DNA of 64,000 bases from Deltaproteobacteria bacterium (GTDB taxonomy: Bacteria; DRYD01), in the NCBI GenBank assembly GCA_028276365.1, contig JAPYWL010000001.1:44557-108556 (forward strand), written 5' to 3'. Shown here in pieces: positions 42,955 to 50,043 of the stretch. The notes below the pieces were generated by a model. It did no database searches. It had not been told where the DNA came from and was given only the letters and a program-made list of their open reading frames with translations. How positions within the stretch are numbered: position 1 is the stretch's first letter; every line of letters starts with the position of its first letter. A program made the translations under genes and the position numbers.

Positions 42955-43073
42955 GGGTGGTGCCAATAGCGGTGGGGAAACACCCGGTTTCCATTCCGAA
43001 CCCGGAAGTTAAGCCCACCAGCGCCGATGGTACTAATGGGGCGACCCTGTGGGAGAGTAGGTCGGTGCCACCC
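42955..43073 (+). rRNA. 5S ribosomal RNA
   Basis: About 119 nt. The end stem pairs GGGTGG at 42955-42960 with CCACCC at 43068-43073. Internal consensus segments are visible: CCATTCCGAACCCGGAAG, TTAAGCCCACCAGCGCC, and GAGAGTAGGTCG. A run of seven T follows immediately, which suits a terminator. No 16S or 23S sequence flanks it; mlaD-like and rsmG genes do. An ORF overlapping it is a by-product. Confidence 0.95.
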
Positions 43074-43260
43074 TTTTTTTATTTATTTCTAACTAGATTC
43101 AAGCTGGATTCAAAAAAGACAAAAATTATAAAATATAAAAAATTAATAATATTTTTTATTAGCACTTTTTAAGTGTTTAAAAAATAATACCTTTAAAATA
43201 ATACCTCTAATTTATTGTAGTTTATTGTAATTTCTTCTAATTTAGTGTAAAGCGTTTGAT
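43074..43260. terminator. Gene-free spacer with T run after 5S rRNA and weak hairpin
   Basis: A T-rich run follows the 5S 3' end directly and probably ends its transcript. A short hairpin, CACTT/AAGTG (43163-43175), occurs further on. Near-duplicate units AAAATAATACCT occur around 43180-43206 and TTTATTGTA is repeated around 43211-43229. The spacer separates the 5S gene from the convergent rsmG gene. Confidence 0.55.
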
Positions 43261-43968: not shown

Positions 43969-44196
43969 TTATATAATAAGTAATAATTTTATTGATTTTA
44001 TATTTTTTTAGAGCTATATTTATAATTGTTAATAAACTTTGACAAATATTTATTAAAACCTTCTTTAGTTGTTAGAAAATCGTGGAAAAATTTTTAATTT
44101 TTTCTTTGGAAAGGTTTTATTTAGATAAAAAAGAAAATAATAAAAGAAAATAATAAAAATAATATATGTAAAATGTTTTATGAAGGAGATAATAAA
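43969..44196 (+). promoter_or_regulatory. Divergent spacer upstream of putative precursor peptide
   Basis: These 228 bp lie between rsmG (-) and the small peptide ORF (+). A perfect TTGACA stands at 44039-44044 on the plus strand, with only a weak -10 match (TCTTTA at 44062). A 9-bp inverted repeat, TAAAACCTT (44054-44062) and AAGGTTTTA (44111-44119), follows and could be an operator or hairpin. GAAGGAGAT at 44182-44190 is the ribosome binding site of the small ORF. Confidence 0.4.
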
Positions 44197-44277
44197 ATGC
44201 TTCAATTAATTCCCATGGAAATTTTATGTAGTTATTCTGCTAAGAGAGCTGTGTTAAGAATAAGTTATAATTTGTAA
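44197..44277 (+). CDS. Candidate RiPP precursor peptide (26 residues)
   Basis: A very short ORF with one of the best ribosome binding sites in its neighbourhood: GAAGGAGAT ends 6 nt before the ATG. The peptide begins MLQLIPMEIL, has its only cysteine at residue 11, then SYSAKRAVLR, and ends ISYNL. It stops 17 nt before a radical SAM/SPASM enzyme with an N-terminal PqqD-like domain. That layout (tiny ORF, then maturase) is the standard signature of a peptide modified by a radical SAM enzyme, such as PqqA/PqqE. It does not match any precursor family I know. It could also be a leader peptide for translation coupling. Confidence 0.55.
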   Translation: MLQLIPMEILCSYSAKRAVLRISYNL

Positions 44278-44294
44278 GTTTAAGAATTTATAGT

Positions 44295-45605
44295 ATGAAA
44301 AAAAGGTTTATTGGAAGATTAGAATATTTTGGATCTTTACTTTTTGATTTAGAGAGGAAAGAGTATATTCCTTTTGATAAAGATGCAACTTCTATTTTAT
44401 TTAATATCTCAAATTTTAAGGATATAGATGAAATATATTATAGATATTTTTCTAATAAATTTAATTACTTAAGTTATAAGAGTTTTATACAATTAGCACA
44501 GTATTTAGGGATAATAAATGATGATTATTCATTAAATGTTGAGTTTTTGGTAAATGAAGAATTAGAGTTATTAAATGAATATAAGATATTAAGTGCTCCA
44601 TTGAAGGTATATTTTGCATTAACTTATAGCTGCCCTTTAAGATGTAAGCATTGTTTTTCTAATTCTGGAGATATAGAAGATTCTCTTAAAAAAAATGAAT
44701 TATCTTTTGAAAAAATTAAGGAGATTTTAAAAGAATTAAAAGAATTAGGAGTATATTATATTTCATTTGGTGGTGGGGAACCCTTTGATAAAGATAACTT
44801 TATTCAAATATTAAAATATTCTAATGATTTAAATTTAGTTGTATTTATTTCTACTTCTTTAATTACTTTTGATAAATATTATCAAGAAATTATAGATAAT
44901 AATATAAAAATAAAGGAGTTTAAAATTAGTATTGATGCAGTTAGTTCTAGGGATTATTTAAATATAAAGGGTAGAAGTTATTTTGATAAACTTAAAAATA
45001 ATTTAAAATTATTAAAAATGTATAAAGAATTTAACAATGAAGTAAGTATTAGGTTTCATTTTGTTTTAAATAAGTTAAATTATAATGATTTGCCTGCTTT
45101 TTTGAATTTTGCTGAGCAGTATGAAGCTGATAAATTATCATTTAGTCCTATATTTATAACGGGTCGTGCTACTAAAGATTTAGCTCTATCTAATGAAATA
45201 CTTAAAAAAATTGATACTGTTATAAATAATATGAAAGAAAGAACGAGGATAGAGATAGAATTTTTTAATGTTCCTTTAGAAGTTGGGAAAACAGGATTAT
45301 ATACAGGGTTTGGCTGTGGATGTGGTAAAACTGTATGTTATATTTCTCCTTATGGAGATGTTTTACCATCTGGAATGTTTATAAATTACAAAGAAAAATT
45401 TTCTTATGGAAATCTTAAAAACTCTTCATTTAAACAAATATGGCTTAATACTTATCTAAAAGAGATAAATAATATAAGTGAATATGATACTAGATGTAAG
45501 GAATGTGAATATTTTGATAATTGTAGAGGAGGATGTAGATTTAGGAGTTTTAATGAATTTAATTCATTAATTTATAAAGATCCTACTTGCTATATAAAAA
45601 AATAA
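44295..45605 (+). CDS. Radical SAM/SPASM peptide maturase with PqqD-like domain
   Basis: A 436-residue protein. Residues 1 to about 95 (RLEYFGSLLFDLERKEYI, then DKDATSILFNI) resemble the PqqD/RRE domain that binds precursor peptides. The radical SAM core has CPLRCKHC with C113, C117 and C120, and GGGEP at 159-163. The C-terminal SPASM domain has eight cysteines: C341, C343, C348, C401, C404, C410, C414 and C432, enough for two auxiliary clusters. Such proteins form C-C or thioether crosslinks in peptides, or mature quinohemoprotein-type cofactors. The candidate substrate is the 26-residue peptide just upstream. No ribosome binding site is obvious, suggesting translational coupling. Confidence 0.88.
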   Translation: MKKRFIGRLEYFGSLLFDLERKEYIPFDKDATSILFNISNFKDIDEIYYRYFSNKFNYLSYKSFIQLAQYLGIINDDYSLNVEFLVNEELELLNEYKILSAPLKVYFALTYSCPLRCKHCFSNSGDIEDSLKKNELSFEKIKEILKELKELGVYYISFGGGEPFDKDNFIQILKYSNDLNLVVFISTSLITFDKYYQEIIDNNIKIKEFKISIDAVSSRDYLNIKGRSYFDKLKNNLKLLKMYKEFNNEVSIRFHFVLNKLNYNDLPAFLNFAEQYEADKLSFSPIFITGRATKDLALSNEILKKIDTVINNMKERTRIEIEFFNVPLEVGKTGLYTGFGCGCGKTVCYISPYGDVLPSGMFINYKEKFSYGNLKNSSFKQIWLNTYLKEINNISEYDTRCKECEYFDNCRGGCRFRSFNEFNSLIYKDPTCYIKK

Positions 45606-45632
45606 AAATTATAAAAAATAAAAATTATAAAA
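45601..45632. repeat. Perfect tandem duplication of a 16-nt unit at a gene junction
   Basis: AATAAAAATTATAAAA occurs twice in exact tandem (45601-45616 and 45617-45632). It spans the stop codon of the radical SAM gene and runs to the base before the next ATG at 45633. It therefore replaces any normal ribosome binding site for that gene. Confidence 0.92.
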
Positions 45633-46253
45633 ATGGATAACTTAACTTCTGAAACTCTATATTATATTTTAAAAGATATTAACACTTTTATTCTTAATTT
45701 AAAAGAAAATTTCAAAAATAATGAGAATACAAAGATAAATAATACTATTAATGAAATAGAGCAAGTTTTTTCTGAACTTGTTAAAGCAGTAGAAAATCAA
45801 GATAATACTAATATCTATAAATATTTATTAAAGTTAAAATCCTTGGAGCTAAAGATATTAATAAATGAAGCTAAAGGTAATCAACTTTATTTATTTTGGG
45901 AAGAATTAATTAAAAATATTAAAGCTAAAAAAATAACTAATGAAGAATTAAAGGAATTTTATGAATCAGAGCTTTCAAAACTATTTATGAATGCTGAGAT
46001 AGTTGCTAATATAATAATCTTAGAAGATGATGAATTTTTTAAAAATTTTTTAGATATTATTTTTGGTGAAGCTTTCAGAAATTATTACTATGCTTTAGAA
46101 AAAATAAAAGAATTTATTGTAACTCAAAATGCCTCTGTTTTAGAAAATGTATTGGATAACATACTTATTAGCTCATTTTTTTTTGTTCAGATTTATAAAA
46201 TAATTCCTGAAGAGTACTCTAAAAACATAGAAGATATTATAAAAGGTCAATAA
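45633..46253 (+). CDS. Helical protein of unknown function, downstream of the radical SAM gene
   Basis: A 206-residue, largely alpha-helical, acidic protein that I do not recognise. The first half looks like a helical bundle or coiled coil; the second half has a hydrophobic FFKNFLDIIFGEAFRNYYYAL stretch, split here, as in TetR- or chaperone-like bundles. No signal peptide. It is likely co-transcribed with the radical SAM gene, 27 nt away, and could be a partner or target. It lacks a ribosome binding site. Confidence 0.5.
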   Translation: MDNLTSETLYYILKDINTFILNLKENFKNNENTKINNTINEIEQVFSELVKAVENQDNTNIYKYLLKLKSLELKILINEAKGNQLYLFWEELIKNIKAKKITNEELKEFYESELSKLFMNAEIVANIIILEDDEFFKNFLDIIFGEAFRNYYYALEKIKEFIVTQNASVLENVLDNILISSFFFVQIYKIIPEEYSKNIEDIIKGQ

Positions 46254-47159: not shown

Positions 47160-49238
47160 TTAAAATGTATAATTTACCCCTAAGTATATGTTTCTTTTTT
47201 TAGATGGATAAGAATATATTGGAAAATTATTAGCATAACTTATTACGCTATAATACCTTGTATTAAATATATTTTCAATATTTATAAAAAAGTAATTATC
47301 TTTTGATAAATAGTATGAAATAGTTAAATTAGAGAGTAGATAGTCTTTTATTTTGATATTATTTTCTGATATAACTGATGAGGTATATTTGGTTTCAAAG
47401 CCGATTAATATGTTATCATTTAAGTTAAATCCATATTTGAATAAAACTAATAATTTAGGGGAATTTGGTAAAAAATTAAATAAATCTGATTTTATTTTAG
47501 AATTATTATAACTTACACTAAATCTTACTAAGTTTTTATTATTATATTGTTTAAAGTAATCTAATAAAATTCCTGTAGAATATATATTTCCTATGTTTTG
47601 AAATTGACTTATATTATTTATATCATCTACAATTACATTATTAATTAAGTTTGATATTTTCATATTATAAAAGGAGATATTTAAATAACCTTTTTGATTT
47701 AATTCATGAAATTCTTTGTAATATATTAGTTCTAAGGTATTATGTTTTTCTGGTGTTAAATTTAAGTTATTTAGGGTTGAAATGCCTCCGTCGTTATAAT
47801 AACTTTCACTGATGGTTGGTGCTCTGTAATTTGTTGAATAAATTAATTTAATAGCACTATTTTCACCTAATAGTTTTATTAATCCTGCTTTAGGTAATAG
47901 AATATCTCTAAAGTTATTATATAAATTTGAGTAATTATCATATCTTAAGCTTGTAGTTAATATTAAATCATCTTCTAAAGAGTATTCCATATTAGTATAT
48001 ATTGAATACAGGAATATTGATTTTTTTTCTAAGTTAAGATATTCATTTATTAAGTATCTATTAGTATAATTTACGTCAAAATTATTTAATTTAAAAGAAA
48101 GATTTTTTAATTCTGTGCCTATTAAAAATTTATATTTATTTTTTGAAAGATTCATATTTATATCGAACGAAATTAGATTTGATTTAAGATTGTCTATATT
48201 TAAATAGTTTATTGGATTATCATAAAAATAATTTCCAAATTCCTTATATTTTTGATTATAAAATGTTAAATTTATTGTTTTGTTTGTATCTAATTTTATC
48301 TTTTTTCTATATAAGAGGTTATAATAGTTATCTGATATATTGGTTTCAAAAGAATTAAATACTGTATTATATGCTCCTGTTGGAAAATGAAATTTATGTT
48401 CATATGAATTAAAATGGAATTCGCTATCTTCACTAAATAATGAAATATAAAAATAATTTTGGTAAGATTTATCTATATAATAAGCAGTTGAATCTAAAGC
48501 TAATTCTTCTCTTTCTTTAAAAAATACCTTTGAACCTTTATAATTTAATAAACTAATACCTAAGGATAATTTTAGATAGTTATCATATTTTTTAGTTAGC
48601 GTTTTGCTAAAAGTAAAGTTATTTAAAGTATTTATTTTATTATCCTTAAAGTTAATAAAGCTATTAAAGTAAAATTGGTTGTTTAAATTTTTATAATTGG
48701 GAACTATATTAATTGTAGCTAATAGGGAATTGCTGCCAAAATAAACGTTAGAAAATCCGAAGACTATTTCTATGTTATTAACTAAATAGGGGGGTATATT
48801 TACGGGGGTTCCAAATAAGGGCTCATTTAAAGTTATTCCATTAAATAGGAAAAGTGCTCTTGAATTGTAACTCCCTGGTATTTGAACTCCTTTACTCCCT
48901 AAATACCAGTATGCACCATCTTCTACTATATATAAACCAGGACTAAAATTTAGTAATCTTTTTATATCTGGATAAAAAAAATACCTTATTTCTTGAGGTT
49001 GGATTATACTTATACTTGCTGCTGATTTCAATACACTTTGACTATACTTATTTAATGACTCTATTTCATTTACAAAGTTTAGTTCAGATTTTAGAAATAT
49101 TTCTTCTTCCATTAGTTCTTTATTATTTTCATTTGTTGAAAATCCAAATTTAGAAAAAGATAATAAACTAAGTAATAAAACTAATAAAATAACTAAATAT
49201 TTTATTTTGTTTTTAAGTTTATTTAGAAGTATATACAT
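47160..49238 (-). CDS. TonB-dependent outer membrane receptor
   Basis: A 692-residue protein. A signal segment lies near residues 14-33. The plug domain spans about 60-180 (SAASISIIQPQEIRYF, DIKRLLNFSPGLYIVEDG, ITLNEPLFGTPVN, NNIEIVFG). The rest has the alternating strands of a 22-strand barrel and ends in an aromatic residue (NYTF). The substrate is unknown. It overlaps the 3' end of a substrate-binding protein gene by 20 nt, so the two are co-expressed. Confidence 0.87.
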   Translation of the reverse strand: MYILLNKLKNKIKYLVILLVLLLSLLSFSKFGFSTNENNKELMEEEIFLKSELNFVNEIESLNKYSQSVLKSAASISIIQPQEIRYFFYPDIKRLLNFSPGLYIVEDGAYWYLGSKGVQIPGSYNSRALFLFNGITLNEPLFGTPVNIPPYLVNNIEIVFGFSNVYFGSNSLLATINIVPNYKNLNNQFYFNSFINFKDNKINTLNNFTFSKTLTKKYDNYLKLSLGISLLNYKGSKVFFKEREELALDSTAYYIDKSYQNYFYISLFSEDSEFHFNSYEHKFHFPTGAYNTVFNSFETNISDNYYNLLYRKKIKLDTNKTINLTFYNQKYKEFGNYFYDNPINYLNIDNLKSNLISFDINMNLSKNKYKFLIGTELKNLSFKLNNFDVNYTNRYLINEYLNLEKKSIFLYSIYTNMEYSLEDDLILTTSLRYDNYSNLYNNFRDILLPKAGLIKLLGENSAIKLIYSTNYRAPTISESYYNDGGISTLNNLNLTPEKHNTLELIYYKEFHELNQKGYLNISFYNMKISNLINNVIVDDINNISQFQNIGNIYSTGILLDYFKQYNNKNLVRFSVSYNNSKIKSDLFNFLPNSPKLLVLFKYGFNLNDNILIGFETKYTSSVISENNIKIKDYLLSNLTISYYLSKDNYFFINIENIFNTRYYSVISYANNFPIYSYPSKKRNIYLGVNYTF

Positions 49239-50043
49239 AGGGGTAAGGGAAATATATTTTATAGGTATTATCGTAATTTAGGGAATCATTTTTTTTAATG
49301 ATATTAGCTATGTTAGTTCCTAAAGAGAAATAATCAATAGAATAAGCTGCGTCTATTCCATATTTTAGCAGTATTTTATGGGCGGAAATTAATGGCTTAT
49401 TCATTGATTTAATAGAGCTAATTAAAAATAATAAATTATTTTCTTCTAATATTATTGAATCTGAGAATAAATATACTATATCGACTTTTTCTATTTGTTT
49501 TAGAGCATTTTTGTAATTGTAATTATCTATTGGAATTAAGATATAATTAAGGTTTAAGTTTTTAGCAGCTTTAGCAGCTTCCTCTATTGCATAATTCTTC
49601 TCGTTAAAAATAAATCCAATTGTTTTTATATTATTATATCTATTTTTTATATCTTTAAATACTTCTTGAAATGGAGGGTATATGGAGAAACCTATAAATT
49701 TTCCTAAAACTCCTATTTTTTCTGGAGATAATACCAAAGCATATATTATTAATTTATTTTTAAGATTAGTATTTTTAAGGTAATAAGTTGCTTCACTTGT
49801 TAATGCTATTATTATATCATATTTATTTAAATTTATTTTTTCTACGTCTTTTAAATTATATATATCACATTTAGGATATTGAGATAGGAAACCTTGAATA
49901 ACTAAATTAACTGGTTCTATATTTTTATCTTTTATTATTAGTATATTTTCTAAATTACTAGTATTTCCTTTTAGTATTAAAATTTTTATCAAAATGTATA
50001 TAGCAAGAGTTATTAAATATATTTTTTTTACAATTTTGTACAT
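49219..50043 (-). CDS. ABC-type substrate-binding protein (ABC_sub_bind family)
   Basis: A 274-residue protein with an N-terminal hydrophobic segment (about residues 8-25). The fold follows periplasmic binding proteins of the ABC_sub_bind family: DIIIALTSEATYYLK, GVLGKFIGFSIYPPFQEVFK, IKTIGFIFNEKNYAIEEAAKAAK, and a C-terminal AAYSIDYFSLGTNIANII. No permease or ATPase gene is adjacent. It is first in a two-gene unit with the TonB receptor, so it may act as a periplasmic relay for an imported ligand. Confidence 0.7.
   Translation of the reverse strand: MYKIVKKIYLITLAIYILIKILILKGNTSNLENILIIKDKNIEPVNLVIQGFLSQYPKCDIYNLKDVEKINLNKYDIIIALTSEATYYLKNTNLKNKLIIYALVLSPEKIGVLGKFIGFSIYPPFQEVFKDIKNRYNNIKTIGFIFNEKNYAIEEAAKAAKNLNLNYILIPIDNYNYKNALKQIEKVDIVYLFSDSIILEENNLLFLISSIKSMNKPLISAHKILLKYGIDAAYSIDYFSLGTNIANIIKKNDSLNYDNTYKIYFPYPYVYTSK

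Follow-up and report, generated by a model that had tools for sequence, protein, structure and literature searches.

In the window, which is the whole analysed stretch of 64,000 nucleotides, two neighbouring genes on the plus strand encode a 436-aa radical SAM (rSAM)/SPASM enzyme (44295-45605) and an all-helical protein of 206 aa that contains neither Cys nor His (45633-46253) and is the probable dedicated partner of the enzyme. They are preceded on the same strand by a 26-codon ORF with a strong ribosome binding site (44197-44277), which occurs in the window's genome only and is no conserved part of the rSAM-helical unit. Further upstream, a block at 44110-44137 (plus strand), 93% identical to the sister species by blastn, is the probable promoter or 5' region of the rSAM gene in both species of the genus. 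The two species also share their flanking genes, namely RsmG before the rSAM gene, and the helical protein, methionine aminopeptidase (MAP) and a TonB receptor after it. The TonB receptor and a PF04392 binding protein occupy 47160-50043 on the minus strand, within a few kb of the unit; both are found near the unit in the two genomes of the genus and in one of the neighbouring genus (G002), with a TonB fragment also present in another (G003), and a functional link to uptake is possible. In addition, a 5S rRNA gene (42956-43073, plus strand, 104.7 bits) is located, apparently alone, between an MlaD-like gene and rsmG, and a 71-aa ORF lying over it (42957-43172) is spurious.

The window's genome (G000) was compared with its sister species (G001; together genus g1, two genomes), with a neighbouring genus (g2, G002-G005) that completes a family of six genomes (f1), and with a member of another family of the same order (G006). 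The order is represented by seven MAGs only, apparently all drafts of 71-90% completeness; the locus of the sister species lies on contig CAKZQG010000028.1 of an uncultured-bacterium MAG. Reverse gyrase is encoded in the window's genome (contig C23:7-2967, minus strand), its score exceeding the family cut-off once the frame pieces were joined, which supports the thermophilic life style that had been thought probable for this organism.

Sequence features and distribution of the two genes

The enzyme comprises a putative RRE-like region of ~95 residues at its N-terminus, a CxxxCxxC motif at residues 113-120 (CPLRCKHC, with C113, C117 and C120) and a C-terminal SPASM domain, and it exceeds the Pfam cut-offs for both Radical_SAM (72.8 against 29.5 bits) and SPASM (29.4 against 21.5 bits). 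Orthologs were identified in every one of the order's seven genomes, where the rSAM profile scores at least 591 bits as against at most 146 bits elsewhere, and an omega of 0.08 between G000 and G001 points to purifying selection. By score, the closest named rSAM family is mycofactocin MftC (TIGR03962, TIGR03969; 135.3 bits, cut-off 265), followed by NirJ (116 bits, cut-off 515) and PqqE (97.6 bits, cut-off 381); the NCBIfam matches further include AhbD and AhbC. As all scores fall short of the equivalog cut-offs, the enzyme reaches no named family, in agreement with the original prediction. In a 30-sequence tree, the rSAMs of the order form one group (89/96), apart from the MftC, GeoRSP, NirJ2-like and AhbD-like groups. 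The best matches among solved structures in a profile search were CteB, PqqE and SuiB, all of which are peptide-acting rSAM/SPASM enzymes.

The canonical SPASM motif contains seven Cys in the arrangement CX9-15GX4C..CX2CX5CX3C..C (PMC6231123); six of the seven positions are kept in the enzyme, and Ser359 takes the GX4C position in each of the six orthologs of the family. The incomplete motif does not exclude the enzyme from the superfamily, since known members vary. Thus, of the eight SPASM cysteines that had been reported, all eight exist in the C-terminal part, but the canonical set is broken at one position, and Ser359 suggests a probable non-Cys ligand or open site in one of the auxiliary clusters. 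The PqqD-like character proposed for the N-terminus is weakly suggested by an hhalign comparison (score 20.9, probability 15%, against a maximum of 14.0 among 30 shuffled controls) and by the match to SuiB, whose alignment of about 60 bits spans residues 7-434 and includes its RRE, but the Pfam PqqD domain gave no hit on this region. A structure model of the enzyme from a two-sequence alignment was poor (mean pLDDT 42.6) and was set aside. An N-terminal match in a further genome (G014) was discarded, since it proved to be an enzyme of the TIGR04053 type whose gene neighbours a protoporphyrinogen-oxidase-like one.

The helical protein has no family in Pfam or NCBIfam, as had been anticipated. 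Its profile detects it in the order's seven genomes (E<=8.4e-85) and yields chance-level matches only in 379 other genomes (E of 1e-3 or worse); no relatives were found in viral contigs. The protein is also under purifying selection (omega of 0.11 between G000 and G001, with 0.06 for the essential neighbour MAP for comparison) and is conserved over its whole length, the invariant residues including Y10, W89, E90, F109, E113, Y151, Y152, P192 and Y195, and the conserved aromatic ones being Y10, Y86, W89, Y151, Y152 and Y195. All five AlphaFold models from a two-sequence alignment were entirely helical, the best with a mean pLDDT of 78 and the other four at 58 or less. Foldseek searches with the helical model returned nothing at E<=0.001, the best hit (0.1) being a designed protein and many others vinculin/catenin-type bundles, and the best VIA-align Z of 11.7 lies under the level that is informative for helical bundles.

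Throughout the family of six genomes, the helical gene directly follows the rSAM gene and often overlaps it (27 and 51 nt apart in g1; an overlap, 3 or 20 nt in g2). The earlier suggestion that the helical protein could be a partner of the enzyme therefore holds, given this constant position and the same order-level distribution of both proteins, and both subfamilies are confined to the order. A two-gene operon at 44295-46253, without the 26-codon ORF, is the best explanation of the functional unit. In g2 the operon also contains an NfeD-like gene, directly before the rSAM gene, and closes behind the helical gene with a gene for a KamB-like P-loop protein (L061:11329-12171). Each of the seven genomes of the order encodes this KamB-like protein (NF052386, 126.7 bits, cut-off 210), and its g1 gene is located behind a FeoB-type GTPase-domain gene (contig C19 of G000, L083:1444-2271). 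It was left out of the unit, being unlinked to the rSAM-helical pair in g1 and G006.

In G006 the rSAM homolog and the helical gene are on different contigs. The homolog (P0004, 453 aa; contig C56, L059:406-1767, minus strand) has a continuous frame except for a 4-residue assembly gap distant from the motif, and it lacks all three CxxxCxxC Cys as well as GGGEP while keeping the C-terminal SPASM Cys; its Pfam Radical_SAM score of 22.7 bits is below the cut-off. It is a pseudo-rSAM/SPASM protein, and its very long tree branch (2.67) is as expected from a loss of constraint or a change of role. The helical protein persists in this genome despite the missing radical cluster. Pseudo-SAM/SPASM proteins of the TIGR04347 type have likewise lost CxxxCxxC and kept the SPASM Cys, but the score against that family (30, cut-off 525) is far below its threshold, and the copy in the window is itself intact. 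Such a natural pseudo-enzyme offers a way to ask what a protein of this kind does without radical chemistry.

The 26-codon ORF

The ORF encodes the 26-aa peptide MLQLIPMEILCSYSAKRAVLRISYNL, with a single Cys at residue 11, and carries the upstream Shine-Dalgarno (SD) sequence GAAGGAGAT; 17 nt separate its end from the rSAM ATG at 44295, and in these respects the initial description was accurate. An alternative in-frame ATG at 44173 would give a 34-aa product, the start at 44197 being favoured because of the SD placement. Among the 55 starts examined in the window, 17 have an SD, of which that of the ORF is among the strongest, and both the rSAM and helical genes are without an SD of their own. 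The ORF is the sole one in the window's intergenic DNA with an ATG start, at least 26 codons and an SD; in simulated sets of such DNA the chance of one or more was ~3%, so that the ORF may well be translated, though translation would not make it a conserved precursor. Its GC content by codon position (0.26/0.33/0.22) is unlike that of the rSAM gene (0.30/0.26/0.12).

The peptide had been proposed as a RiPP precursor on which the rSAM enzyme acts, a view that comparison with related genomes does not support. The rSAM of G001 is 88% identical to that of G000, and a small ORF comparable to the 26-mer was looked for upstream of its gene and not found. The 28-nt conserved block lies 25 nt from the rSAM start in G001 as against about 158 nt in G000, and the 26-codon ORF therefore sits in ~130 nt of extra DNA that is present in G000 only. 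A repeat or mobile origin of this region was rejected, as a 48-nt stretch on contig C23 with 90% similarity proved to be the AT-rich beginning of a different gene rather than a second copy. In g2 the rSAM gene is directly behind the NfeD-like gene, with a spacing of 3 nt (G002), an overlap (G003) or 33 nt (G004), and 1-28 nt separate the helical gene from the next one; this tight packing leaves no room for a precursor gene. The contig of G005 starts within its rSAM gene, and the upstream regions were checked in G001-G004, from all of which the ORF is absent.

A tblastn-like search of 20 related genomes for relatives of the 26-mer matched only the query itself, and a tblastn search of plasmids found none. 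As a positive control, MftA adjoining true MftC was recovered by the same genome search in G315 and G378; within the order (G000-G006) this search gave no MftA above the cut-off. The original prediction had itself named the lack of the small ORF at orthologous rSAM loci as grounds for giving up the peptide, and since the loci of the sister species and the neighbouring genus do lack it, the claim fails by its own standard. The 26-mer was thus rejected as a RiPP precursor, with no co-conservation with the maturase. A RiPP claim from this locus alone would have been wrong, as the comparative data remove the peptide.

Possible roles of the rSAM-helical pair

Several known systems share features with the pair. 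The enzyme resembles MftC in its SPASM domain and in the motif context around CxxxCxxC and GGGEP, but its score falls short of the family cut-off, MftA is lacking in the order, and its tree branch is separate. The likeness to PqqE, PqqA and PqqD consists of an rSAM/SPASM enzyme and the layout, noted at first reading, of a peptide gene upstream; it is offset by the low PqqE score, the unconserved peptide and the missing PqqD domain hit. The predicted three-part architecture is the same as in SuiB (streptide) and CteB, rSAM/SPASM enzymes with a fused N-terminal RRE; however, the match amounts to about 60 bits only, there is no cognate small peptide gene, Ser occupies the GX4C position and a helical partner is found instead.

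The best reading is that of an uncharacterised rSAM/SPASM maturase that is restricted to the order and paired with a helical adaptor. The rSAM/SPASM protein would be a cytosolic maturation enzyme whose intact CxxxCxxC cluster would cleave SAM, and the two sites for auxiliary clusters, at one of which a ligand position is not Cys, may handle electrons or substrate. The N-terminal RRE-like domain would dock a protein or peptide substrate, presumably encoded outside the unit, and the helical protein may serve as an adaptor or scaffold that binds the rSAM and presents or stabilises this substrate. The 26-codon ORF would be a recent, species-level feature, either arisen by chance or serving as a short translated leader before the SD-less rSAM gene. 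This scheme, with a dedicated adaptor, a substrate encoded elsewhere and no part for the ORF at 44197-44277, is advanced tentatively, as quite possible rather than probable. An adaptor is preferred because the helical protein has no Cys, shows conservation along all of its sequence and has been retained in a family whose rSAM homolog lost the radical cluster. What remains is an uncharacterised rSAM/SPASM subfamily with an undescribed, probably dedicated helical partner in an uncultured order of thermophiles.

It is also conceivable, though somewhat unlikely, that the helical protein is itself the substrate, with the rSAM modifying, for instance, one of its conserved Tyr or Trp residues in the manner of rSAM/SPASM enzymes that act on proteins; this explanation ranks second to the adaptor, close behind. 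The tight coupling and co-distribution of the two genes and the conserved aromatic residues listed above are consistent with it, but a protein without Cys whose conservation is spread over the full length, and which persists in G006 where radical catalysis is lost, argues against it. In the six genomes that have an intact rSAM, Y62 and Y110 do not vary, and both are replaced in G006, a pattern of little weight because the G006 copy is 33% identical and many residues differ anyway. Decidedly unlikely is a small-molecule substrate with no peptide involved, for instance a tetrapyrrole or some metal complex with a link to the uptake genes nearby. NirJ as the second-best NCBIfam match, along with AhbD and AhbC, would fit this explanation, as would the TonB receptor (a weak B12-receptor match) and the ABC-type binding protein PF04392 near the unit in g1 and at least G002, and the FecB/IsdE-like binding protein that adjoins the G006 helical gene. 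However, the heme-enzyme scores are far under their cut-offs, the receptor genes are loosely spaced from the operon and on the opposite strand, and an RRE-like N-terminus would be unexpected.

Genes can be adjacent without any functional interaction, and the two products may be merely co-transcribed members of unrelated pathways; the separate contigs in G006 and the presence of NfeD and KamB-like genes of no obvious relation in the g2 operon agree with this. Such an explanation has little chance, considering that both genes share the same narrow phylogenetic distribution and stay adjacent in two genera with different surrounding genes. The least credible explanation, and a very improbable one, is that the 26-mer is a true RiPP precursor, specific to the lineage, that the rSAM modifies. 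In its favour are the position 17 nt upstream, the strong SD, the low chance of such an ORF per window by composition, and the presence of one Cys, as some enzymes, e.g. CteB, bind a substrate Cys at an open Aux I site (PMC6231123). Against it stand the absence from the sister species despite a highly similar enzyme, the absence and lack of room in g2, and the deviating codon-position GC.

A broader scenario, unlikely when taken as a whole, would be a new protein-maturation system that arose in one order of thermophiles, in which an rSAM/SPASM enzyme with atypical auxiliary ligands acts on or through the helical protein, the catalytic cluster having later been lost in one family where the pair was kept in a non-catalytic role.

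Apart from the unit discussed here, contig C186 of G006 encodes a different rSAM/SPASM enzyme of 468 aa that belongs to no named family (L087:4908-6314, minus strand), followed after 21 nt by a gene for a 68-aa peptide (L087:4680-4886, minus strand). The peptide was not found in other genomes (290 searched); it combines a leader-like helical part with the C-terminal sequence GMGVVVCCNAE, and is a better RiPP candidate than the 26-codon ORF of the window.
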